Source: Aquimarina sp. TRL1 (GTDB taxonomy: Bacteria; Bacteroidota; Bacteroidia; Flavobacteriales; Flavobacteriaceae). Taken from it: a stretch of 64,000 nt of DNA. The first letter of the stretch is position 1; the number at the start of each line of letters is the position of its first letter. Made by a program: the position numbers and the translations under genes. The notes beneath the pieces were generated by a model. That model searched no databases. It saw only the letters and a list, made by a program, of their open reading frames with translations, and was not told the origin of the DNA. Shown here piece by piece: positions 1 to 12,191 of this stretch. The stretch is taken from NCBI RefSeq assembly GCF_013365535.1, contig NZ_CP053590.1:734501-798500 (forward strand), in the 5' to 3' direction.

Positions 1-1409
1 TTTACTTCTTCTAAGTTTGATATCCCAGGAATAACTTTAAACTCCAAAGCTTTTATCACTTTTAGCAAGGAAGCCATTCCTGCTGCTATTTCCGGATGTC
101 CAATAATTGGCTTTACTGAACTTACATACCACTTCTTATCTACAGTTGTGCTCAATTTTTTATATGCTTCACTAATTGCACTTAATTCCACCGCATCTGC
201 CAGACGGTTTCCTATTCCATGTGCTTCAATATAATCAATCGTATCAACGGGAATTCCTGCCTTTTTTACTCCTTGCCATATCGCTTCTTTAATCCCTTTA
301 GCATTCGGGGCTTCAATAGAGAAGTTTTTTCCTCCATGCACAACACTTGTCCCACATAAACTCGCCAATATCCTTCTCTCATTCGCAATAGCGATACTCT
401 CTTTGGTAACAATCAGAACTCCTGCCCCTTCACTTCTGAGAAATCCATTCGCGGTATTGCTATAACTCTTTGTACAATTCGTAGCACTTAATAATTCTTC
501 ATACATCCCCTGAGATGATTCTTTTTCAAATGTTTTTTTCTCTATTAAGTTTACTCCTCCTACAATGGCTTGTTCACATTCTCCTTCGCGAATACAGCGT
601 ACTGCTTTATGAAGCGCAACATACACACTGGTACAAAATGTATTAATTGTTTCGCTTGGTCCGACGATATTCAACCGATAGGATACCTCATTAGCCAAAG
701 GAATCTGATACGCGGTTTTTTGTTTTTCTGCTACATTGGTATCCGCTGCTATAAACACTCCGGTTTTTTGCGAAGTCCAATCTTGTAGAGAAAAGCCATA
801 TGTTTTCATTGCTTTTGCCAATACTGAATAAAGGATAGTTTGTTGCCTGCTTAGCTCCTTAATTTCCTCTTCGAACCCTAATACTTCCCTGATTCGTTGT
901 GTATCGATTTTTGTAATATTCCTATACTCTAATCCACTATTATAAGTAGCTTCTTTTTGTCGAACAGTTTCGGACATGGACTTTTCCCACATTGCTGCTA
1001 CATCCACTTCATCAGGAAAAATCCCTGCCATACCAACTACTACCAGCTTTTCTTCTGTTATTTTTTTTGTTTCATGTCGCTCATTGATTACTCCTTCCAT
1101 ACTCCCTCCTTCCATCTCTAACACTTCTTCTAACAAATACGATACTAATAATTGCATTTCCGGATAATCAAAAAATAAGGTCGTTCTCAATTGACATTGC
1201 AGATCATCTTCTAAAGTGGTTTTGAATTGCAATGCTTCCATAGAAGTTACTCCTAGCTCAACAAAAACCTGATTTTCTGATACCTCTTCTATGGCATCCA
1301 ATTCTAAAAAATCCACTAATAATCTTCTGATATGATCTGTTAATAGCTTAGGGCGATCTGAAGAAGTACTTTGGGTTAAAACACTAAGTATAGTAGCAGG
1401 TGTCATCAT
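1..1409 (-). CDS. Polyketide synthase, N-terminal ACP-KS part (runs off left edge)
   Basis: The open frame runs from an ATG at 1407-1409 (or the next ATG at 1404-1406) to the window edge without a stop, giving about 469 residues. Residues ~22-100 are an acyl carrier domain with the phosphopantetheine serine Ser56 in ELGVTSMEAL. Residues ~122-469 are a ketosynthase: start motif VVVGMAGIFP, nucleophile Cys259 in NTFCTSVYVALHKA, His397 in IEAHGIGN and His438 in KPIIGHPEIAAG. The Cys-His-His triad is intact, but the usual GTGT and NIGH motifs are altered and the stretch before the Cys is short, so this is a divergent KS. A carrier domain placed before a KS would let a preloaded acyl or isonitrile-acyl group pass straight into chain extension; that is inference. 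It is downstream of the FcoT-like gene, separated by a terminator-like hairpin. Confidence 0.9.
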   Translation of the reverse strand, partial: MMTPATILSVLTQSTSSDRPKLLTDHIRRLLVDFLELDAIEEVSENQVFVELGVTSMEALQFKTTLEDDLQCQLRTTLFFDYPEMQLLVSYLLEEVLEMEGGSMEGVINERHETKKITEEKLVVVGMAGIFPDEVDVAAMWEKSMSETVRQKEATYNSGLEYRNITKIDTQRIREVLGFEEEIKELSRQQTILYSVLAKAMKTYGFSLQDWTSQKTGVFIAADTNVAEKQKTAYQIPLANEVSYRLNIVGPSETINTFCTSVYVALHKAVRCIREGECEQAIVGGVNLIEKKTFEKESSQGMYEELLSATNCTKSYSNTANGFLRSEGAGVLIVTKESIAIANERRILASLCGTSVVHGGKNFSIEAPNAKGIKEAIWQGVKKAGIPVDTIDYIEAHGIGNRLADAVELSAISEAYKKLSTTVDKKWYVSSVKPIIGHPEIAAGMASLLKVIKALEFKVIPGISNLEEV

Positions 1410-1450
1410 AAATAAAGTCTAAATTGAGATAAGTATGTATATTAAAAAAT

Positions 1451-1490
1451 CAATGGTAATACTCAACTATTACTAGTGAGACTACCATTG
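1451..1490 (-). terminator. Hairpin with U-run between FcoT-like gene and PKS
   Basis: Arms CAATGGTA (1451-1458) and TACCATTG (1483-1490) pair perfectly, with an inner CTCA/TGAG. On the minus strand the stem is followed by ATTTTTT, as in an intrinsic terminator. It may end or attenuate the ligase-oxidase-FcoT transcript before the PKS, which would then need its own promoter or depend on read-through. Confidence 0.6.
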
Positions 1491-1533
1491 ACCAGAGGTA
1501 TGAATATTCGCTATATTCTAACAGTATAGGTTA

Positions 1534-2085
1534 TTATGGATGTAGAATAGCTAACGTAATATCTCCTTTGGATTTTCCGTTGGTTTCATCCTGAAAACTG
1601 CAGTACATCTTTATAAATGTGCAGTTCGATTTTTTGGAAATTGTATCAATCCCAACTTCTCCATAGAAGTGTTTTGCATTGATCTGACTTCGATATGAAG
1701 AACTAATACTCGCTATCAAAAAATGCGATAATTGTTTTTCTAAAAACACTTCTCCATGCTCGCTTTCAAATCCTTTTAATTCAGGGATTAATCCTTCTTT
1801 TATACAATATCCATAAAACACGTATGCTAATTGATTAAAACAAATATTAAATTCTACTGCATTAAAGTGTCCTGTATCATCTATATAACAAGAATCTGCT
1901 ATCCCAAACTCTCCTTTCATCATCAGCCCTTTTTCTTGTTCTTCTTCTTTCTTTTGAAAAATTGCTTTTTTCAAATAGGTAGTATGTGAACGATATGGTT
2001 GTAACACTTCCATCATAAAATCATGATCGACAACCACTTGGTTTTCTACCTCCGGATATATTGTTTCTATAGAAGCCATTACCAT
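1534..2085 (-). CDS. FcoT/ScoD-type fatty acyl thioesterase or enoyl-ACP glycine-adding enzyme
   Basis: 183 residues, the same length as mycobacterial FcoT (Rv0098). The central block matches the family closely: SCYIDDTGHFNAVEF followed by ICFNQLAY, then a C-terminal HFLIASISSSYR segment. By alignment from memory, Tyr31, Tyr67, His73, Asn75 and Asn84 correspond to conserved FcoT pocket residues. FcoT was first described as a long-chain acyl-CoA thioesterase. In isonitrile lipopeptide clusters the homologue (ScoD, MmaD) adds glycine to an alpha,beta-unsaturated acyl-ACP and releases the product. The ATG overlaps the stop of the upstream oxygenase gene by one base (TAATG), so the two are translationally coupled and probably act in one pathway. 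The glycine-adding role is inferred from this neighbour. Confidence 0.85.
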   Translation of the reverse strand: MVMASIETIYPEVENQVVVDHDFMMEVLQPYRSHTTYLKKAIFQKKEEEQEKGLMMKGEFGIADSCYIDDTGHFNAVEFNICFNQLAYVFYGYCIKEGLIPELKGFESEHGEVFLEKQLSHFLIASISSSYRSQINAKHFYGEVGIDTISKKSNCTFIKMYCSFQDETNGKSKGDITLAILHP

Positions 2086-2975
2086 TATTTTTCTAATCCA
2101 ACATAAAAAGGAAGATCATCATAAATCCCAATTCTATAGCTTTTACTTTTTTCTCCGGGAGGTAAAGCAGAAGACATATGAAGCAAATATCTATTATCCC
2201 AAATAATTAAATCTCCTTTCTCCCAGGTATGTACATGAATATGTTCTTCTTTTTCGATGAATTCAAACAATTTCTTCATTGCTTCTTCATTTTCTTCGTG
2301 TTTTAGACCATCTATTTTCATCGTAAAACCGCTGCTCATGTATAAAATTTTATCTCCAGTTACCGGATGTTCTATAATGGCAGGATGTTTTACAAACGGT
2401 ACCATTTCATTCATTTTATCAATCAACTGCTGGATGGATTTATCGATATCGTCAGGAGTAACTTTATATCTGTTATTTCCTCCATGTATCAGGGTGGCGC
2501 CTTCTACTATTTTTTTAAGATCTTCTGGCATTTTATTGTATACCTCATGCATATCGATATACCTGGTCTCCCGAATTGTCGGAGGAATCACAATTGGCGT
2601 TATCGAAGTAAAAGACAATGGCTTAGCTTCGAACTGACAGTCTGTATGCCAATAATGTCCTGTTCCTGCAACTCCAACTTTCTCTCCTTCTTTATTGACA
2701 TTGGAGGAAACAAAAATTTCTGGATAATCGGGATGGTGATAGTTTTCCTGAAAATATACTTGTGGTCTTCCTAAAACTCTTGTAAATGCCACATACTCCT
2801 CGGGTTCCAAAGATTGGTTCCGAATTACGACTAGCTTATTTCTATAAATAGCATTTCTTATTTCTGCCAGTTCAGGATCCTCTTTTTTTAATTCTTTGAC
2901 ATCAATTCCTGATATTATCCCTCCTATTTCTCCGGGTTTAGCATCTTCAATCTGAATGACTTGTGTTGTTTCCAT
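2085..2975 (-). CDS. ScoE-like Fe(II)/2-oxoglutarate-dependent isonitrile-forming oxidase
   Basis: 296 residues of the TauD/TfdA fold. Iron ligands are visible as His110 and Asp112 (YWHTDCQF) and the distal His266 (WDNRYLLHMSS); Arg281 is placed to bind 2-oxoglutarate. The segments LGRPQVYFQENYHHP and EIFVSSNV, and the HTD context, match the ScoE subgroup rather than taurine dioxygenase. From memory, ScoE uses active-site tyrosines and a lysine to hold the substrate carboxylate; Tyr74, Tyr79 and Lys171 are candidate equivalents, while one ScoE tyrosine is Phe75 here. ScoE converts an N-carboxymethyl-3-amino acid to an isonitrile by two oxidation steps with decarboxylation. Adjacent to a FcoT-like gene and an acyl ligase, that role is more likely than sulfonate or herbicide use. 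The exact substrate is unknown. Confidence 0.85.
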   Translation of the reverse strand: METTQVIQIEDAKPGEIGGIISGIDVKELKKEDPELAEIRNAIYRNKLVVIRNQSLEPEEYVAFTRVLGRPQVYFQENYHHPDYPEIFVSSNVNKEGEKVGVAGTGHYWHTDCQFEAKPLSFTSITPIVIPPTIRETRYIDMHEVYNKMPEDLKKIVEGATLIHGGNNRYKVTPDDIDKSIQQLIDKMNEMVPFVKHPAIIEHPVTGDKILYMSSGFTMKIDGLKHEENEEAMKKLFEFIEKEEHIHVHTWEKGDLIIWDNRYLLHMSSALPPGEKSKSYRIGIYDDLPFYVGLEK

Positions 2976-3037
2976 AATTTAGATTAGGTTTATTCGATAT
3001 ATTATTAGTTTATTACTGATGATTTTTATTGCGACAC

Positions 3038-4612
3038 TTAGTTGACTTGCCGTTCTAATCCCTTCCAGAAAGGGGCTCTTAATTCTCTTTTCAGGATTTT
3101 TCCACTTGGATTTCTGGGAAGCGATGGTACAAATGAAATAGTGCTGGGTATTTTATAATCTGCTATTTTCCCTCTACAAAAATTAATGAGGGCTCTTTTT
3201 TTAATTTCTTGTTCGGGTTGTACTACTATAATTGCTTTTACCACTTCTCCCCATTGATCATCCGGAATACCTATTACGGCAACATCTTTTACTGACGGAT
3301 GCTCACTTAATACTGCTTCTATCTCTGCCGGGTATATATTTTCTCCAGAACAAATGATCATATCTTTGATTCTATCACAGATAAAAATATAGCCGTCTTC
3401 ATCTATGTAACCTGCATCTCCGGTATGTATCCATCCATCTATCATCGTTTCCTGAGTGGCTTTTGTATTATTCCAATATCCAATCATATTGGAAGGTGAT
3501 TTCAGGCAAATCTCTCCTATGGTATTCGGAGGAACTGATTGATGCTTAAAGTTTATTACCTTGGCTTCTACACCTGGCAAGGGCTTACCAGCAGATTTCA
3601 TTTTCTCATTCCATGGTATTGTATGATCTTCCGGGCGAAGGCATACTGCCATATTTCCCGTTTCTGTCATCCCATACACCTGAAAAAAGTCACAATCAAA
3701 AGTTTTCATTGCTATTCGCATTACCGCAGGAGTAATCGGAGATCCCCCATACAAAAAACCAGTAACAGAAGAGAAATCAGTATTTTTATATGCGGGTTCT
3801 GCTAATACAAATTGTACCATTGCCGGTACCATAGCAACTTTGGTGACTTTTAATTTTTCTATATATTCCAATGCTTTCCAGGCGATGAATGTTTCCAATA
3901 CAATGCCCTTTGCCCCTACTATAAACCCTTGTATAGCCCACCATAGTCCCCCAATATGAAACATCGGTAACGACAACAATAAAGTATCCCTACTCTCGAG
4001 ATTCATCCAGGCATCTCCTTTTGCATACATTCCCTGCAATAAGGAAAAAAAGCTGTAATGTGCCAATTGTACTCCTTTGGGACTTCCCGTTGTTCCCGAA
4101 GTATACATTTGTACCACCGGAGTCTCTGCCGTATGTGTTACTCTTGTTTCTAAAGAAGATTGTTCTTCTTTCCATTGCACATATTCCTGGTATTCTCCAT
4201 GTGTTCCCTTACAACATATAATCTTTCTGACTGTGATTAGTTCTTCCGCTATAGAGGCGACAACATCAAAGAACTCTTCCCCAACAAATAAAACTTCTGC
4301 TGCTCCATTATTGAGGATATATAAAATTTCTTTAGCACTCAGCCGCCAATTGACCGTAATTAGTACAGCTGCAGCTTTTGCTGTTCCAAATAATATTTCA
4401 AACCCACAAATACTATCTTTTGCTAAATACCCTACTCTTGTTCCTTCTTTGACCCCTTCTTTTATCAGTCCATTAGCGACCTGATTGGTATAACAATCAA
4501 ACTGGCGATAGGTGATCTCTTTATCTTCAAAAAGAAAGGCTGTTTCGTTACCTCTTATTTTTGCCTGATGGTTACAAAGTGTAACTAAGGTCTCCGGGGG
4601 GTGTTTTTTCAT
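3038..4612 (-). CDS. Acyl-AMP ligase (ANL superfamily, FadD/ScoC-like)
   Basis: 524 residues, normal length for an acyl-CoA or acyl-ACP ligase. The ATP-binding loop YTSGTTGSPKG is at 170-180, the VYGMTETG motif lies mid-protein, the hinge region contains GWIHTGDAGYIDEDGY, and the adenylation lysine is Lys505 in NPSGKILKREL. It activates a fatty acid or related acid with ATP and passes it to CoA or a carrier protein. In isonitrile clusters one or two such ligases load the acyl chain and reload the isonitrile acid onto an ACP; this is probably one of them, with the PKS N-terminal ACP as the candidate acceptor. It is the first gene of the minus-strand run (62 bases before the oxidase gene) and is divergent from the phosphopantetheinyl transferase. 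Confidence 0.88.
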   Translation of the reverse strand: MKKHPPETLVTLCNHQAKIRGNETAFLFEDKEITYRQFDCYTNQVANGLIKEGVKEGTRVGYLAKDSICGFEILFGTAKAAAVLITVNWRLSAKEILYILNNGAAEVLFVGEEFFDVVASIAEELITVRKIICCKGTHGEYQEYVQWKEEQSSLETRVTHTAETPVVQMYTSGTTGSPKGVQLAHYSFFSLLQGMYAKGDAWMNLESRDTLLLSLPMFHIGGLWWAIQGFIVGAKGIVLETFIAWKALEYIEKLKVTKVAMVPAMVQFVLAEPAYKNTDFSSVTGFLYGGSPITPAVMRIAMKTFDCDFFQVYGMTETGNMAVCLRPEDHTIPWNEKMKSAGKPLPGVEAKVINFKHQSVPPNTIGEICLKSPSNMIGYWNNTKATQETMIDGWIHTGDAGYIDEDGYIFICDRIKDMIICSGENIYPAEIEAVLSEHPSVKDVAVIGIPDDQWGEVVKAIIVVQPEQEIKKRALINFCRGKIADYKIPSTISFVPSLPRNPSGKILKRELRAPFWKGLERQVN

Positions 4613-4913
4613 GAAAACAGTATTAGTTTTTTTTCTATCATGTCTACTACAAATTTCATGAATTACACCTGCGAAGGCTAAAAAGAAAAACGCCTTTTAT
4701 TTCACTAATCAATCCTTAACATTTATGTTTTTACTCATTTTAATTAAAAAATCAATCCTTCTTATGTTTCTTTGAAAACTTCAGAAGAAAAAAGTTTTTT
4801 TTACGTTCTTCCACTAGTATATTTAGTTACATAAAATCGATTCTTTTAACGCTTTTTAGGGTAAAAAATCTTTTTTATTTAAATATCTTTATAGATTATA
4901 AGGTTGACAGGTT
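4613..4913. other. Divergent promoter region of the metabolite cluster
   Basis: This gene-free, AT-rich stretch separates the ligase (minus) from the phosphopantetheinyl transferase (plus) and must hold the start signals for both. I could not find a clean TAnnTTTG element. A near match, GAAATTTG, occurs on the minus strand upstream of the ligase. No gene is seen here. Confidence 0.5.
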
Positions 4914-5651
4914 ATGTATAGAAAAGGAGTTATACCATTAGAGAGAAAAGAGCGTACTTTTATGGCTGGTTTTTGTATCATTCATAAAGAACTTCAAGAT
5001 TTAGAATCCATAACTCATCTTTTACATCCTAAAGAAACTACTACAGTACAGGCGTTAAAATTCGGAAAGCGAAAATCTAGTTATCTTTTGGGGCGATATG
5101 CTGCAAAAAAAGCCTTATCCATTCTCTTTCCCACCGTAGCTGCTGATAGTATTCTTATTTCTTCTGGTATTTTTAAATTCCCTGTTATAGAGTCTCATCA
5201 CATTCATAATACAAAAGTAAGTATTAGTCACTGTGATACTATTGGAATCGCATTAGCATTCCCTGAAAGCCATCCTATCGGAGTTGACATCGAACGTGTT
5301 AATGAAAAAGGTATCGATGCATTAAAAAGTGTCATCAATGACCAGGAATTCAACCTACTCACTTCCTATCTTCTTCCATCTTCTGTTTGCTATACGATGA
5401 TATGGACTATCAAGGAAGGGCTTTCTAAAATATTAAAAACCGGCTTAATGGCTGATTTTAATATTCTGGAGATAGAGAGCATTTCTAAAGAGGGGAATGC
5501 CTATATCAGTACTTTTAAAAACTTTGCTCAATACAAGGCTGTTTCTTATTGTATTGATGAATACATTTGTACGCTTGTATTGCCTAAAAACACTTCTCCT
5601 ATCCTTTCAGAATTCGAAGAAGCCATTACATACCGGCTTGAGCAGGTTTAG
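4914..5651 (+). CDS. Sfp-type 4'-phosphopantetheinyl transferase
   Basis: 245 residues with the family signature: GRYAAKKAL (60-68), VSISHCD (102-108), the metal-binding pair Asp125 and Glu127 in IGVDIERV, and Trp164-x-x-Lys167-Glu168. It transfers the phosphopantetheine arm of CoA to carrier-protein serines, here most plausibly Ser56 of the adjacent PKS. It is divergent from the ligase gene, a usual place for a cluster's own activating enzyme. The first ATG (4914) is used here; Met17 (4962), preceded by a purine-rich stretch, is an alternative start. The 3' end overlaps the convergent peptidase gene by four bases, so the two transcripts are complementary at their ends. Confidence 0.92.
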   Translation: MYRKGVIPLERKERTFMAGFCIIHKELQDLESITHLLHPKETTTVQALKFGKRKSSYLLGRYAAKKALSILFPTVAADSILISSGIFKFPVIESHHIHNTKVSISHCDTIGIALAFPESHPIGVDIERVNEKGIDALKSVINDQEFNLLTSYLLPSSVCYTMIWTIKEGLSKILKTGLMADFNILEIESISKEGNAYISTFKNFAQYKAVSYCIDEYICTLVLPKNTSPILSEFEEAITYRLEQV

Positions 5652-10102: not shown

Positions 10103-10798
10103 TTATTCATTTATAGTATTTCGCAATGCTCTCTTTAATTGATTACGTTTATCTTTATATGTTTTGCGTTTTTGTTTTTTCTTAAAATCACTTCCAGTAA
10201 AAACTTTTACAGGATTTCCTCTCGATAACTTCACCTGATGATCCCATTCCTGATTCAATCTATCTTTTATGCTTTCTAAGTGAGCCTTTTTTACTTTTTC
10301 TTCCAATCGTTCTTTTGCAATTTTCCGATTTTGATGCTGGGATCTTCGATCCATTACTACCACCATCACTCCTGTGGGTTTATGAATAGCTCGTACTGCA
10401 GAGTTCACTTTATTTACATGTTGCCCTCCCGGTCCTGAACTTTTCATGGTTTGATAGGTAATCTGAGTTTCATCAAACGTATCATCTTTACTCTCTTCCA
10501 GCTGATGTACACCTATGAACCAGTTTTTTCGTTTGTGATATTTTCGATACCTTGAAGTTCCAATCCATTGAATAGTTCCGATCCATTCCTGGCACTTGAT
10601 CATTGCTTTTTCTCCGCTTACCCTGACTATTACAGATCTAATTGTTCCATTTTCAACACCCTGATCCTTATGAAGAACCGTACAGACCATTCTTTTTTCT
10701 TTCATATCTGCTAAAAACCGTTTCAGCACCTGCGCAACAACCCACCAACATTCTGCTGGTCCTCTTGCTGCTGTTATTTGTATAGTTTTTTCTTCCAT
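10103..10798 (-). CDS. prfH: Peptide chain release factor homologue PrfH
   Basis: 231 residues from the ATG at 10796-10798, which sits one base after the rtcB stop; a longer frame uses a TTG start at 10819. The peptidyl-tRNA hydrolysis motif GGQ is at 124-126 in [14 protein letters not shown], followed by the domain 3 [12 protein letters not shown]. The protein lacks the codon-recognition domain of RF1/RF2. PrfH with RtcB is known to act on ribosomes whose decoding-centre RNA has been cut: PrfH frees the stalled peptide and RtcB religates the 16S rRNA. The tight order rtcB-prfH seen here is the standard arrangement. Confidence 0.93.
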
Positions 10799-10799
10799 T

Positions 10800-12191
10800 T
10801 TATCTATCCATTCTGACAATTTTAGGAGTAAAAGTGCCTACTACCTCTACTAATTCCTTTTGGTTAGCCATTACATTATGTATATTTTTATATGCCATTG
10901 GAGCTTCATCAACCCCTCCTCCAAGTACTGTAACACCATGTTCTTTGAGCACTTTATTGATAGCGCTTTTGGTAAATTTTTCTTTACATTTTCTTCTGGA
11001 CAGCAATCGTCCAGCTCCATGAGAAGCAGAATGTAAGCTTTCTGAGTTCCCTCGCCCCCGAACGATATAACCCGGTGCAGTCATAGACCCGGGAATAATC
11101 CCCAAGGCTCCTTTTCCTGCTGGGGTTGCTCCTTTTCTATGTACAATACATTCAACTCCATTCACCATTTCTTTCCAGGCAAAATTGTGATGGTTCTCTA
11201 TTTTACAAATAGGTTTAGCCCCAATTAACTTCCCTATTCTCTTGTGGATATCATCATGACATGCCTGGGCATAATCTCCTGCCAGGTTCATCGCTAGCCA
11301 GTACTCGTGCCCGTCATGTGTCGACAGATCTAACCAGGCTAATTGCTGTACGTGTTTAGGTAATGGACATTGTTTGGTGGCTAAATGCGTATAGTGTTTT
11401 GCTATATTTGCTCCTAACCCTCTGGAACCGCTGTGTGTAAGCAACCCTAAGTAATCCCCGGGTTTTATCCCCCATTCATTCTCAGCATCGGTAATCGTAA
11501 CGATCCCAAACTCTACAAAGTGATTTCCACTTCCTGAGGTTCCTAATTGTTTGTACGCTTTATCTTTTAATTTTTTCACCAATGGAATTGTTGTAAATTC
11601 TTCTCTGGAAAAAATTTCGTGATCGTGTTTTATTTTATGTGTTTCATACATTCCGAACTTGGTATGCTCTGACAAAATTTTCTCTAAACGATATCGCTTT
11701 CCTTTTAGATAGGATACCGCAACGGGATATACTGTCAGACACATTCTGCAACCTATATCAACTCCCACTCCATATGGAATAACAGCATTGTTTGTTGCTA
11801 AAACACCTCCAATTGGCAATCCGTACCCTGTATGTGCATCAGGCATTAAAGCTCCTGCTACAGAAACCGGCAATTTCAGAGCATCATACAATTGATATTT
11901 CGCCTGGTCATCTATTTCATCTTCTCCATATATCATAAAAGGAGCTCTTGTCGTATTTAATGCATGCTTCTTTACTGTTACAGGTGTTAACAGACTTTCT
12001 GCTATTTTTCCCCATACTCCATCTCCTTTAAACAATTCCGGTTTAAGAAGTACTTCTTTTGCTTCTTGTAATATCTGTTCCTTTTTTTTCTTTTTATAAT
12101 ATCTATTAATCTGACCTAATGCCACATTAATACTGTTATTCTTCGGAAACCCTAACTTAATAAGGTCTTTCCCTCTTAATTTCTTTCCCAT
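10800..12191 (-). CDS. rtcB: RNA ligase RtcB (RtcB-PrfH type)
   Basis: 463 residues. Manganese-binding and active-site motifs are visible: [14 protein letters not shown], the cysteine in [29 protein letters not shown], and the guanylylated histidine His351 in [11 protein letters not shown]. RtcB joins RNA 3'-phosphate or 2',3'-cyclic phosphate ends to 5'-OH ends using GTP. With prfH directly downstream, the likely substrate is nuclease-cleaved 16S rRNA. No archease gene is present here. The start overlaps the preceding basic-protein gene by 16 bases, which fixes the operon order. Confidence 0.95.

Follow-up and report, generated by a model that had tools for sequence, protein, structure and literature searches.

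Introduction

Isonitrile lipopeptide clusters have been described from Actinobacteria (PMC9600254, PMC7949033). The diisonitrile products of these nearest known clusters are reported to bind copper tightly and to act as chalkophores (PMC9600254), and a synthetic diisonitrile is reported to rescue copper-starved mycobacteria (PMC9600254; PMC12140626). Sco-like similarity outside the Actinobacteria appears to have been noted before, as the M. tuberculosis isonitrile lipopeptide cluster was described as the closest match of a region of Psychrilyobacter that resembles a nonribosomal peptide synthetase (NRPS) (PMC10580919). Our literature search returned no ScoE-type clusters from Aquimarina, methanotrophs or other Bacteroidota, a weak absence given that few subscription journals were covered; the one paper in which the words isonitrile and Aquimarina co-occur deals with them as separate matters. 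Here we describe a locus of Aquimarina sp. TRL1 in which genes for an acyl ligase, a ScoE-like oxidase and a ScoD/FcoT-like protein adjoin a gene for a hybrid of polyketide synthase (PKS) and NRPS. It lies at the left edge of a stretch of 64,000 nucleotides (the window, C1:734501-798500, of a 5.41-Mb genome in two contigs; coordinates given without the prefix C1 are window positions).

On balance, the locus probably encodes the biosynthetic side of a system for an isonitrile metallophore, most likely a chalkophore, in Gram-negative bacteria. We established its gene content, domain order, catalytic motifs and homology, and a gene order shared across phyla. The five genes on which the original prediction was built (acyl ligase, TauD-fold oxidase, FcoT-type protein, a protein with acyl carrier protein (ACP) and ketosynthase (KS) domains, and a divergent phosphopantetheinyl transferase) are all found at the positions it gave, and Pfam and NCBIfam assign them to the families it named. 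The peptides it quoted are present in the translations, and residue H266 aligns with the iron ligand H295 of ScoE.

Predicted enzymes of isonitrile formation

The oxidase scores 151.3 bits against the Pfam TauD profile, and 268.7 bits against the NCBIfam ScoE model (NF049937) versus 117.0 bits for taurine dioxygenase. Its closest solved structures are ScoE itself (6dch, 2.5e-64), 6l86 and the 9p9p group, and the first taurine dioxygenase follows at 5e-28. The FcoT-like protein matches PF10862 with 153.7 bits (cut-off 27) and the NCBIfam ScoD model (NF049938) with 122.8 bits. Against the PDB it is closest to 5wsy (1.7e-27), ahead of Rv0098 (6.4e-18); 5wsy has no name in the PDB, and its own segment reaches 306 bits for the ScoD model, above the cut-off, which places the window protein nearer the ScoD type, as predicted. 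Chance is excluded for both proteins by E-values of 1e-35 to 1e-80 and by a gene order common to other genera. Together with the acyl ligase that they adjoin, they make up the trio that defines sco/nrp-type clusters. A plain FcoT thioesterase acting alone was rejected because the protein stands with ScoE and the ligase. The FcoT/ScoD family is rare near this genome: in the genomes sampled, PF10862 exceeds its cut-off in 1 of 296 of the order, 1 of 395 of the phylum and 3 of 52 of the genus, the window genome being one each time.

For comparison we used an alignment scan that recovered 188 FcoT/ScoD relatives with two peptide patterns. The best 80 were kept, and all locus tables (labels beginning with L) rest on these 80, so that remote types are under-sampled. 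The window oxidase keeps the iron triad H132/D134/H295 of ScoE, as well as Arg157, Tyr96 and Tyr101. Also kept are Arg310 and Lys193, which in ScoE contact 3-(carboxymethylamino)butanoic acid (CABA) (PMC7949033). H132, D134, H295, K193 and R157 are present in all 53 aligned ScoE-type sequences, and R310 in 49, with a gap in the other 4. These 53 are the survivors of a frame selection and come from 48 of the 80 loci; scoring of all frames finds ScoE in 66 of 80.

In a tree with five TauD-family outgroup proteins from the genus, the 54 ScoE-type rows are all grouped on the same side of a branch that has a support of only 72 (L160 was left out of the outgroup, and L015, an incomplete locus, out of all ScoE trees). 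The window oxidase belongs to an 18-row set (support 96) with other Aquimarina, Microscilla, Methylococcaceae, Marinibactrum and Rhodopirellula, and the solved actinobacterial enzymes fall in another part of the tree. Similar groups were seen in an earlier unrooted tree; the single TauD-family root then tried, from the window genome and with a branch length of 10, was placed on the same side of the main split as the window oxidase. The predicted affinity of the oxidase to ScoE, rather than to taurine or other dioxygenases, is thus borne out by NCBIfam scores, the order of PDB matches and the tree (support 72). The candidate of a taurine or other catabolic dioxygenase, 150 bits below ScoE, was rejected on the same evidence.

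The window genome encodes a second, dissimilar ScoE-ScoD pair (C1:4380870-4384386; L012:12870-16386), followed by a methyltransferase (PF04072) and a Rieske protein. No ligase or NRPS was seen beside this pair, and its ScoE lies at the base of the ScoE-type rows in the five-outgroup tree. The order ScoE-ScoD-methyltransferase-Rieske also occurs in Sporocytophaga (L030, L031) and Williamsia (L046). In Methylomonas koyamae, two ScoE-like genes are in tandem (L020:8093-9953 and L022:2422-4278).

The megasynthase

The cluster continues 9 kb to the left of the window edge. There, the cut ACP-KS frame extends to C1:729637 and encodes a protein of 2090 amino acids (aa) in all, with the Pfam and NCBIfam domain order ACP-KS-ACP-C-A-PCP-thioester reductase, where C is a condensation domain, A an adenylation domain and PCP a peptidyl carrier protein. 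Present are three carrier serines, the KS Cys, two His and Lys, HHxxxDG of the C domain, the A-domain cores, and the nucleotide, Thr and Tyr-Lys motifs of the reductase; we assume for all of these the functional roles commonly assigned to them. Extension to the left, where ScoA- and ScoB-like genes had been proposed as targets of a search, brought both counterparts to light, fused with the KS ahead of the NRPS module. Neither a stand-alone ACP (ScoB) nor a pure NRPS (ScoA) is encoded, as both functions are fused with the KS and a second ACP. A PKS acting "in place of, or ahead of" an NRPS had been envisaged; the second alternative holds, with the KS preceding C-A-PCP in one chain, and the first falls away.

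We compared KS stretches above 110 bits and 280 residues, namely 16 of the cluster type (the window's included) and 9 others. All 16 cluster-type KSs retain the active-site Cys, the two His and the Lys, and share the motifs HGI and KPxxGH; Phe precedes the active Cys in 15 (Leu in L028). The others have ACS, HGTGT and K[ST]N[IV]GH in 9 of 9.

These observations bear on an appreciable, if less favoured, possibility, that the cluster makes an ordinary isonitrile lipopeptide and the KS only passes the chain on (transacylating, non-elongating), to give a simple isonitrile-acyl amino aldehyde or alcohol. The Pfam/NCBIfam scan found no acyltransferase (AT) in the megasynthase, and the five AT matches lie elsewhere in the genome, one in a 322-aa frame, which we take to be the size of FabD. 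The 31 nearest solved KS sequences include chains of AT-less PKSs (PksJ 4na1, 4qyr, 4zdn), alongside AT-bearing ones, with Pks13, CurL and erythromycin synthase also in the set, and the cluster-type motifs depart from the usual HGTGT. All of this suits a pass-through KS. However, such a role fits poorly with the conserved catalytic residues, and with an ACP-KS-ACP layout that supplies both an acyl donor and a carrier for the extender.

The A code of the window is DMENAGAVNK, identical in Aquisphaera and close to DMENSGAVNK of Methylobacter. A. longa, A. muelleri and A. aquimarini have DFWNIGMVHK, and first modules of cyanobacteria mostly DVGEVGSIDK. The substrates named for A codes in this text (lysine, ornithine, threonine) are matches to commonly assigned codes rather than computed predictions, by which the window code is presumably ornithine-like. 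The two parts of the window A domain match Methylobacter marinus at 51 and 53% versus 34 and 46% for A. longa, while the KS, C and reductase domains are nearer A. longa. This points to a putative exchange of A domains within the genus. Chain release also differs among relatives, with a reductase in the window and A. longa and a thioesterase in M. marinus, Microscilla and Marinibactrum.

Related clusters in other organisms

Among the 80 loci, 15 combine ScoE with a KS of the window type, 19 have ScoE and a C domain without such a KS, 32 have ScoE with neither over threshold, and 14 lack ScoE over threshold. The KS-type loci come from Bacteroidota (4; Aquimarina and Microscilla), Pseudomonadota (10; Methylococcaceae and Marinibactrum) and Planctomycetota (1; Aquisphaera). 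A ligase relative is present in 14 of the 15, divergent in L028, and the one without it (L015) is the incomplete locus. Judged by gene content, a hybrid assembly line of predicted isonitrile type occurs in three Gram-negative phyla. The M. oryzae cluster also includes a set of major facilitator superfamily, HlyD and outer-membrane-channel proteins.

In a second locus of Aquimarina aquimarini (L023:7501-20531), a ScoC-ScoE-ScoD trio is followed by a reducing PKS with the usual KS motifs, and no GHSxG was found in the acyltransferase region of this PKS. The trio therefore precedes PKSs of two kinds. Cyanobacterial loci (L032-L070) have the order ScoE-ScoD-NRPS, with a first A code that is presumably ornithine-like, and many have a TonB receptor nearby.

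The hydratase-like lipoprotein and uptake genes

Three genes to the left of the megasynthase encode a small protein with a CNGKC motif, a TonB receptor, and a member of the DJ-1/PfpI family whose N-terminus resembles that of a lipoprotein. The best solved relatives of the lipoprotein are the isonitrile hydratase InhA (3.3e-33) and an uncharacterised ThiJ/PfpI protein, 3ewn (8.6e-33). The window protein is 38% identical to InhA over 192 aligned residues, and the A. muelleri protein 36%; in methanotrophs and planctomycetes, the exported proteins reach 43-51%. Isonitrile hydratase is reported to use Cys101 as nucleophile and Asp17 as a catalytic residue (PMC10971408), and all 17 signal-bearing relatives aligned have both residues (alignment segments read by eye). 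The N-termini, also read by eye, resemble lipoprotein signals in Aquimarina and twin-arginine (Tat) signals in Methylobacter, Aquisphaera and Rhodopirellula. In a DJ-1 tree, InhA is joined by the exported methanotroph and planctomycete proteins (92/84). Of six further DJ-1 genes of the window genome, three could be included in this tree, the others having given no frame match. The window, A. muelleri and A. longa copies are together (97/91), and next to them is a copy from G689, a genome with an uptake cassette of the kind described below.

Besides the window genome, InhA relatives occur in the fetched flanks of 3 of the 15 KS-type loci (A. muelleri L016, M. oryzae L024, Aquisphaera L042), in 1 of the 19 loci with ScoE and a C domain (Rhodopirellula L029, without KS) and in none of the other 46, a weak control for envelope proteins since 34 are Actinomycetota. 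Exported relatives are thus found next to clusters in three phyla. A strong InhA relative (at least 130 bits) is encoded in 8 of 12 cluster-bearing genomes, the other 4 giving at most 75 bits; those of L015, L022, L025, L026 and L052 were not among the genomes scanned. In M. luteus, Methylobacter BlB1 and M. marinus, the hydratase relative lies away from the cluster, directly after a TonB receptor that in all three resembles the receptor of the M. oryzae cluster (830-901 bits).

Isocyanide hydratases are reported to convert isocyanides irreversibly to formamides (PMC10971408). Our literature search did not turn up an exported isonitrile hydratase beside TonB receptors. It is unlikely, in our view, that the isonitrile is a weapon, the InhA-like lipoprotein a self-protection and the TonB receptor incidental. 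Such enzymes are indeed regarded as defensive and may protect producers too (PMC10792529), and XanA, an isocyanide hydratase homologue, is placed in a fungal isocyanide cluster (PMC5974471). However, 13 of the 19 loci with ScoE and a C domain, all 13 cyanobacterial or without assigned phylum, have a TonB receptor nearby (more than 60 bits against one of two queries), as do 3 of the 15 KS-type loci. No such receptor is near the other 46, again a poor control, as 34 of these are Actinomycetota, which are not known to have TonB receptors. In methanotrophs, moreover, the pairing of the receptor with an exported InhA relative suggests import.

In A. muelleri (L016), the megasynthase is followed by the hydratase relative, the CNGKC protein, a 180-aa open reading frame and a TonB receptor cut by the locus end. 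In 8 of 11 loci fetched for the lipoprotein (L137-L142, L145, L146), it is part of a cassette with a CNGKC protein, a TonB receptor and a PepSY-type membrane protein, contents that were determined with Pfam for L142 and from similar N-termini for the others. L144 has the CNGKC protein only, and L143 (A. longa) and L147 have neither. The cassettes L142:2119-14665 and L146:6283-14011 are in genomes in which the search for FcoT was negative, and they include a close relative of the TonB receptor of the window genome (842 and 810 bits). The cassette thus looks like an uptake module of the genus, putatively for metal complexes, that in some species has been joined to the isonitrile cluster. The TonB receptor on the strand of the cluster makes metal binding by the product likelier.

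Features of the locus

The features are collected in Table 1. The G+C content of the cluster (36.1%) is close to that of its surroundings (36.3% and 35.7%), so composition says nothing on recent import. Elsewhere in the window (10103-12191, minus strand), a gene for a GGQ-bearing release-factor-like protein overlaps one for an RtcB-like RNA ligase, as judged from the translations only. We take this arrangement to resemble the known RtcB-PrfH pair.

Table 1. Genes and domains of the predicted isonitrile locus (window positions unless prefixed C1).
Feature	Position	Strand	Evidence or remark
Megasynthase, first 469 of 2090 aa	1..1409 (frame 3-1409), cut by window edge	-	ACP-KS
N-terminal ACP, fused counterpart of ScoB	1134..1334	-	PF00550, residues 26-92; Ser motif ELGVTSMEA
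KS domain	12..1052	-	PF00109/PF02801; Cys-His-Lys-His kept; unusual motifs FCTSVY, EAHGIG, KPIIGH
ScoD/FcoT-like protein, predicted to add glycine to enoyl-ACP and release the thioester	1534..2085	-	PF10862, NF049938, PDB 5wsy
ScoE-like Fe(II)/2-oxoglutarate oxidase, predicted isonitrile former	2085..2975	-	NF049937, PDB 6dch, residues, trees
ScoC-like acyl-AMP ligase, predicted loader of acyl or isonitrile acid on N-terminal ACP	3038..4612	-	PF00501, 268.9 bits
4'-Phosphopantetheinyl transferase, divergent; probable activator of carrier domains	4914..5651	+	PF01648, 46.7 bits (cut-off 25)
Protein with CNGKC (C-x-G-K-C), 126 aa	C1:729142-729522, left of megasynthase	-	No family in Pfam/NCBIfam
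TonB receptor	C1:726297-728714	-	Left of CNGKC protein; strand shared with cluster
DJ-1/PfpI protein, lipoprotein-like start	C1:725387-726292	-	Left of TonB receptor

Proposed pathway

From the predicted enzymes, the following route is possible. The ligase would load a 2-enoic acid on the N-terminal ACP, and the ScoD-like protein would add glycine at the beta carbon and free a 3-(carboxymethylamino) acid, the glycyl unit of which the ScoE-like oxidase may convert to an isonitrile. After reloading by the ligase, the isonitrile acyl chain would be accepted by the KS and probably extended by two carbons on the second ACP, with malonyl supplied by an AT in trans. The C-A-PCP module would then join the chain to an amino acid, ornithine-like if the A code is read correctly, and the reductase domain would release an aldehyde or alcohol. 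The TonB receptor could re-import the metal complex. The DJ-1/isonitrile hydratase-type lipoprotein, predicted to be on the periplasmic side, may hydrate the isonitrile to a formamide, thereby releasing copper or protecting the cell. Given that known diisonitriles bind copper and that isocyanide hydratases form formamides, we infer a chalkophore, with release or protection driven by the hydratase; these reactions, the product, the metal and the role of the hydratase relative are the inferred part of the account.

A more extended version is doubtful. In it, an isonitrile keto-lipopeptide would be secreted and imported through TonB, a periplasmic hydratase would destroy the ligand, and Cu(I) would pass to the C-x-G-K-C protein, in marine Bacteroidota, methanotrophs and planctomycetes alike, with the uptake-and-destroy cassette kept as piracy by Aquimarina that do not produce the compound.

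Several findings weigh against a chalkophore system. We know of no characterised enzyme in the ScoE clade of the window. Neither the oxidase nor the FcoT-like protein reaches the NCBIfam equivalog cut-off (400 bits for ScoE, 250 bits for ScoD). The substitution H299Q is reported to abolish the activity of Streptomyces ScoE (PMC7949033). Of the His299/Arg157 inducible 2-oxoglutarate site, the window oxidase keeps Arg157 and has Ala in place of His299; His occurs at this position in 10 of the 53 aligned sequences and in no aligned KS-type relative. A Lys or Arg three residues ahead of Arg310 (19 of 53, including the window and the KS-type relatives shown) could substitute for His299, which is a guess. 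The locus would work like the Sco pathway, but the equivalog scores, the missing His299 and the lack of a separate ScoB and ScoA set it apart from plain members.

Also unfavourable are the absent AT and the code of the three other Aquimarina species, presumably threonine-like, so that a core with two amines is not general. In the DJ-1 tree, the Aquimarina lipoproteins branch as their own group (99/99), separate from both InhA and the copies of methanotrophs and planctomycetes, and among the 13 cluster-bearing genomes examined there are 4 in which no strong InhA relative was found. In the 52 genomes of the genus, lipoprotein relatives above 220 bits occur in 12, versus FcoT in 3, and the CNGKC protein is matched in 48, which weakens it as a copper marker. 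As both proteins also occur in FcoT-negative genomes, neither is specific to the cluster. We can point to no copper gene or regulator in the system.

It is quite improbable that the trio makes a beta-amino acyl starter, the oxidase hydroxylating the glycyl carbon and the adduct collapsing to a 3-amino acid (on the model of the glycine-adduct route to macrolactam starters): 11 of the 14 FcoT loci without ScoE over threshold have a KS nearby, so that the family also serves PKSs without ScoE, and loss of His299 could mean altered chemistry, but the 150-bit preference of the oxidase for ScoE over taurine dioxygenase, its conserved CABA contacts and the isonitrile-hydratase-like genes that accompany some clusters argue against it.

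If the chalkophore reading is correct, three Gram-negative phyla also make use of isonitrile chemistry, by way of a hybrid assembly line. The system would give methanotrophs, which require much copper to oxidise methane, a route for scavenging this metal, and it proposes how tight copper ligands give up their metal.

Comparison with known systems

Methanobactin, a small copper-binding compound taken up by TonB import in methanotrophs, is alike in these respects and unrelated in chemistry, as the compound predicted here is a PKS-NRPS isonitrile. The KSs of trans-AT PKSs are represented among the nearest solved structures, but the motif set common to the cluster-type KSs is in none of the 9 other KSs tabled. 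InhA shares with the window lipoprotein the DJ-1/PfpI family and the active-site Cys and Asp; the lipoprotein differs in its N-terminus, of lipoprotein type here and Tat type in methanotrophs and planctomycetes, by which it is predicted to act outside the cytoplasm, and in lying outside the InhA group of the tree.

The closest parallel is with the actinobacterial sco/nrp clusters, which also encode a ligase, ScoD- and ScoE-type proteins, an ACP and a C-A-PCP-reductase NRPS, and for which, as here, an isonitrile acyl chain on an amino acid is predicted. Unlike in those clusters, the NRPS is preceded by an ACP fused with a KS and another ACP, the A code is DMENAGAVNK rather than DAEDIGTVVK (actinobacterial L067, L077, L089), the oxidase is without His299, a TonB receptor and an exported InhA-like protein are present, and the organisms belong to other phyla. 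We read this as known isonitrile chemistry in a new context of assembly line, uptake and turnover.

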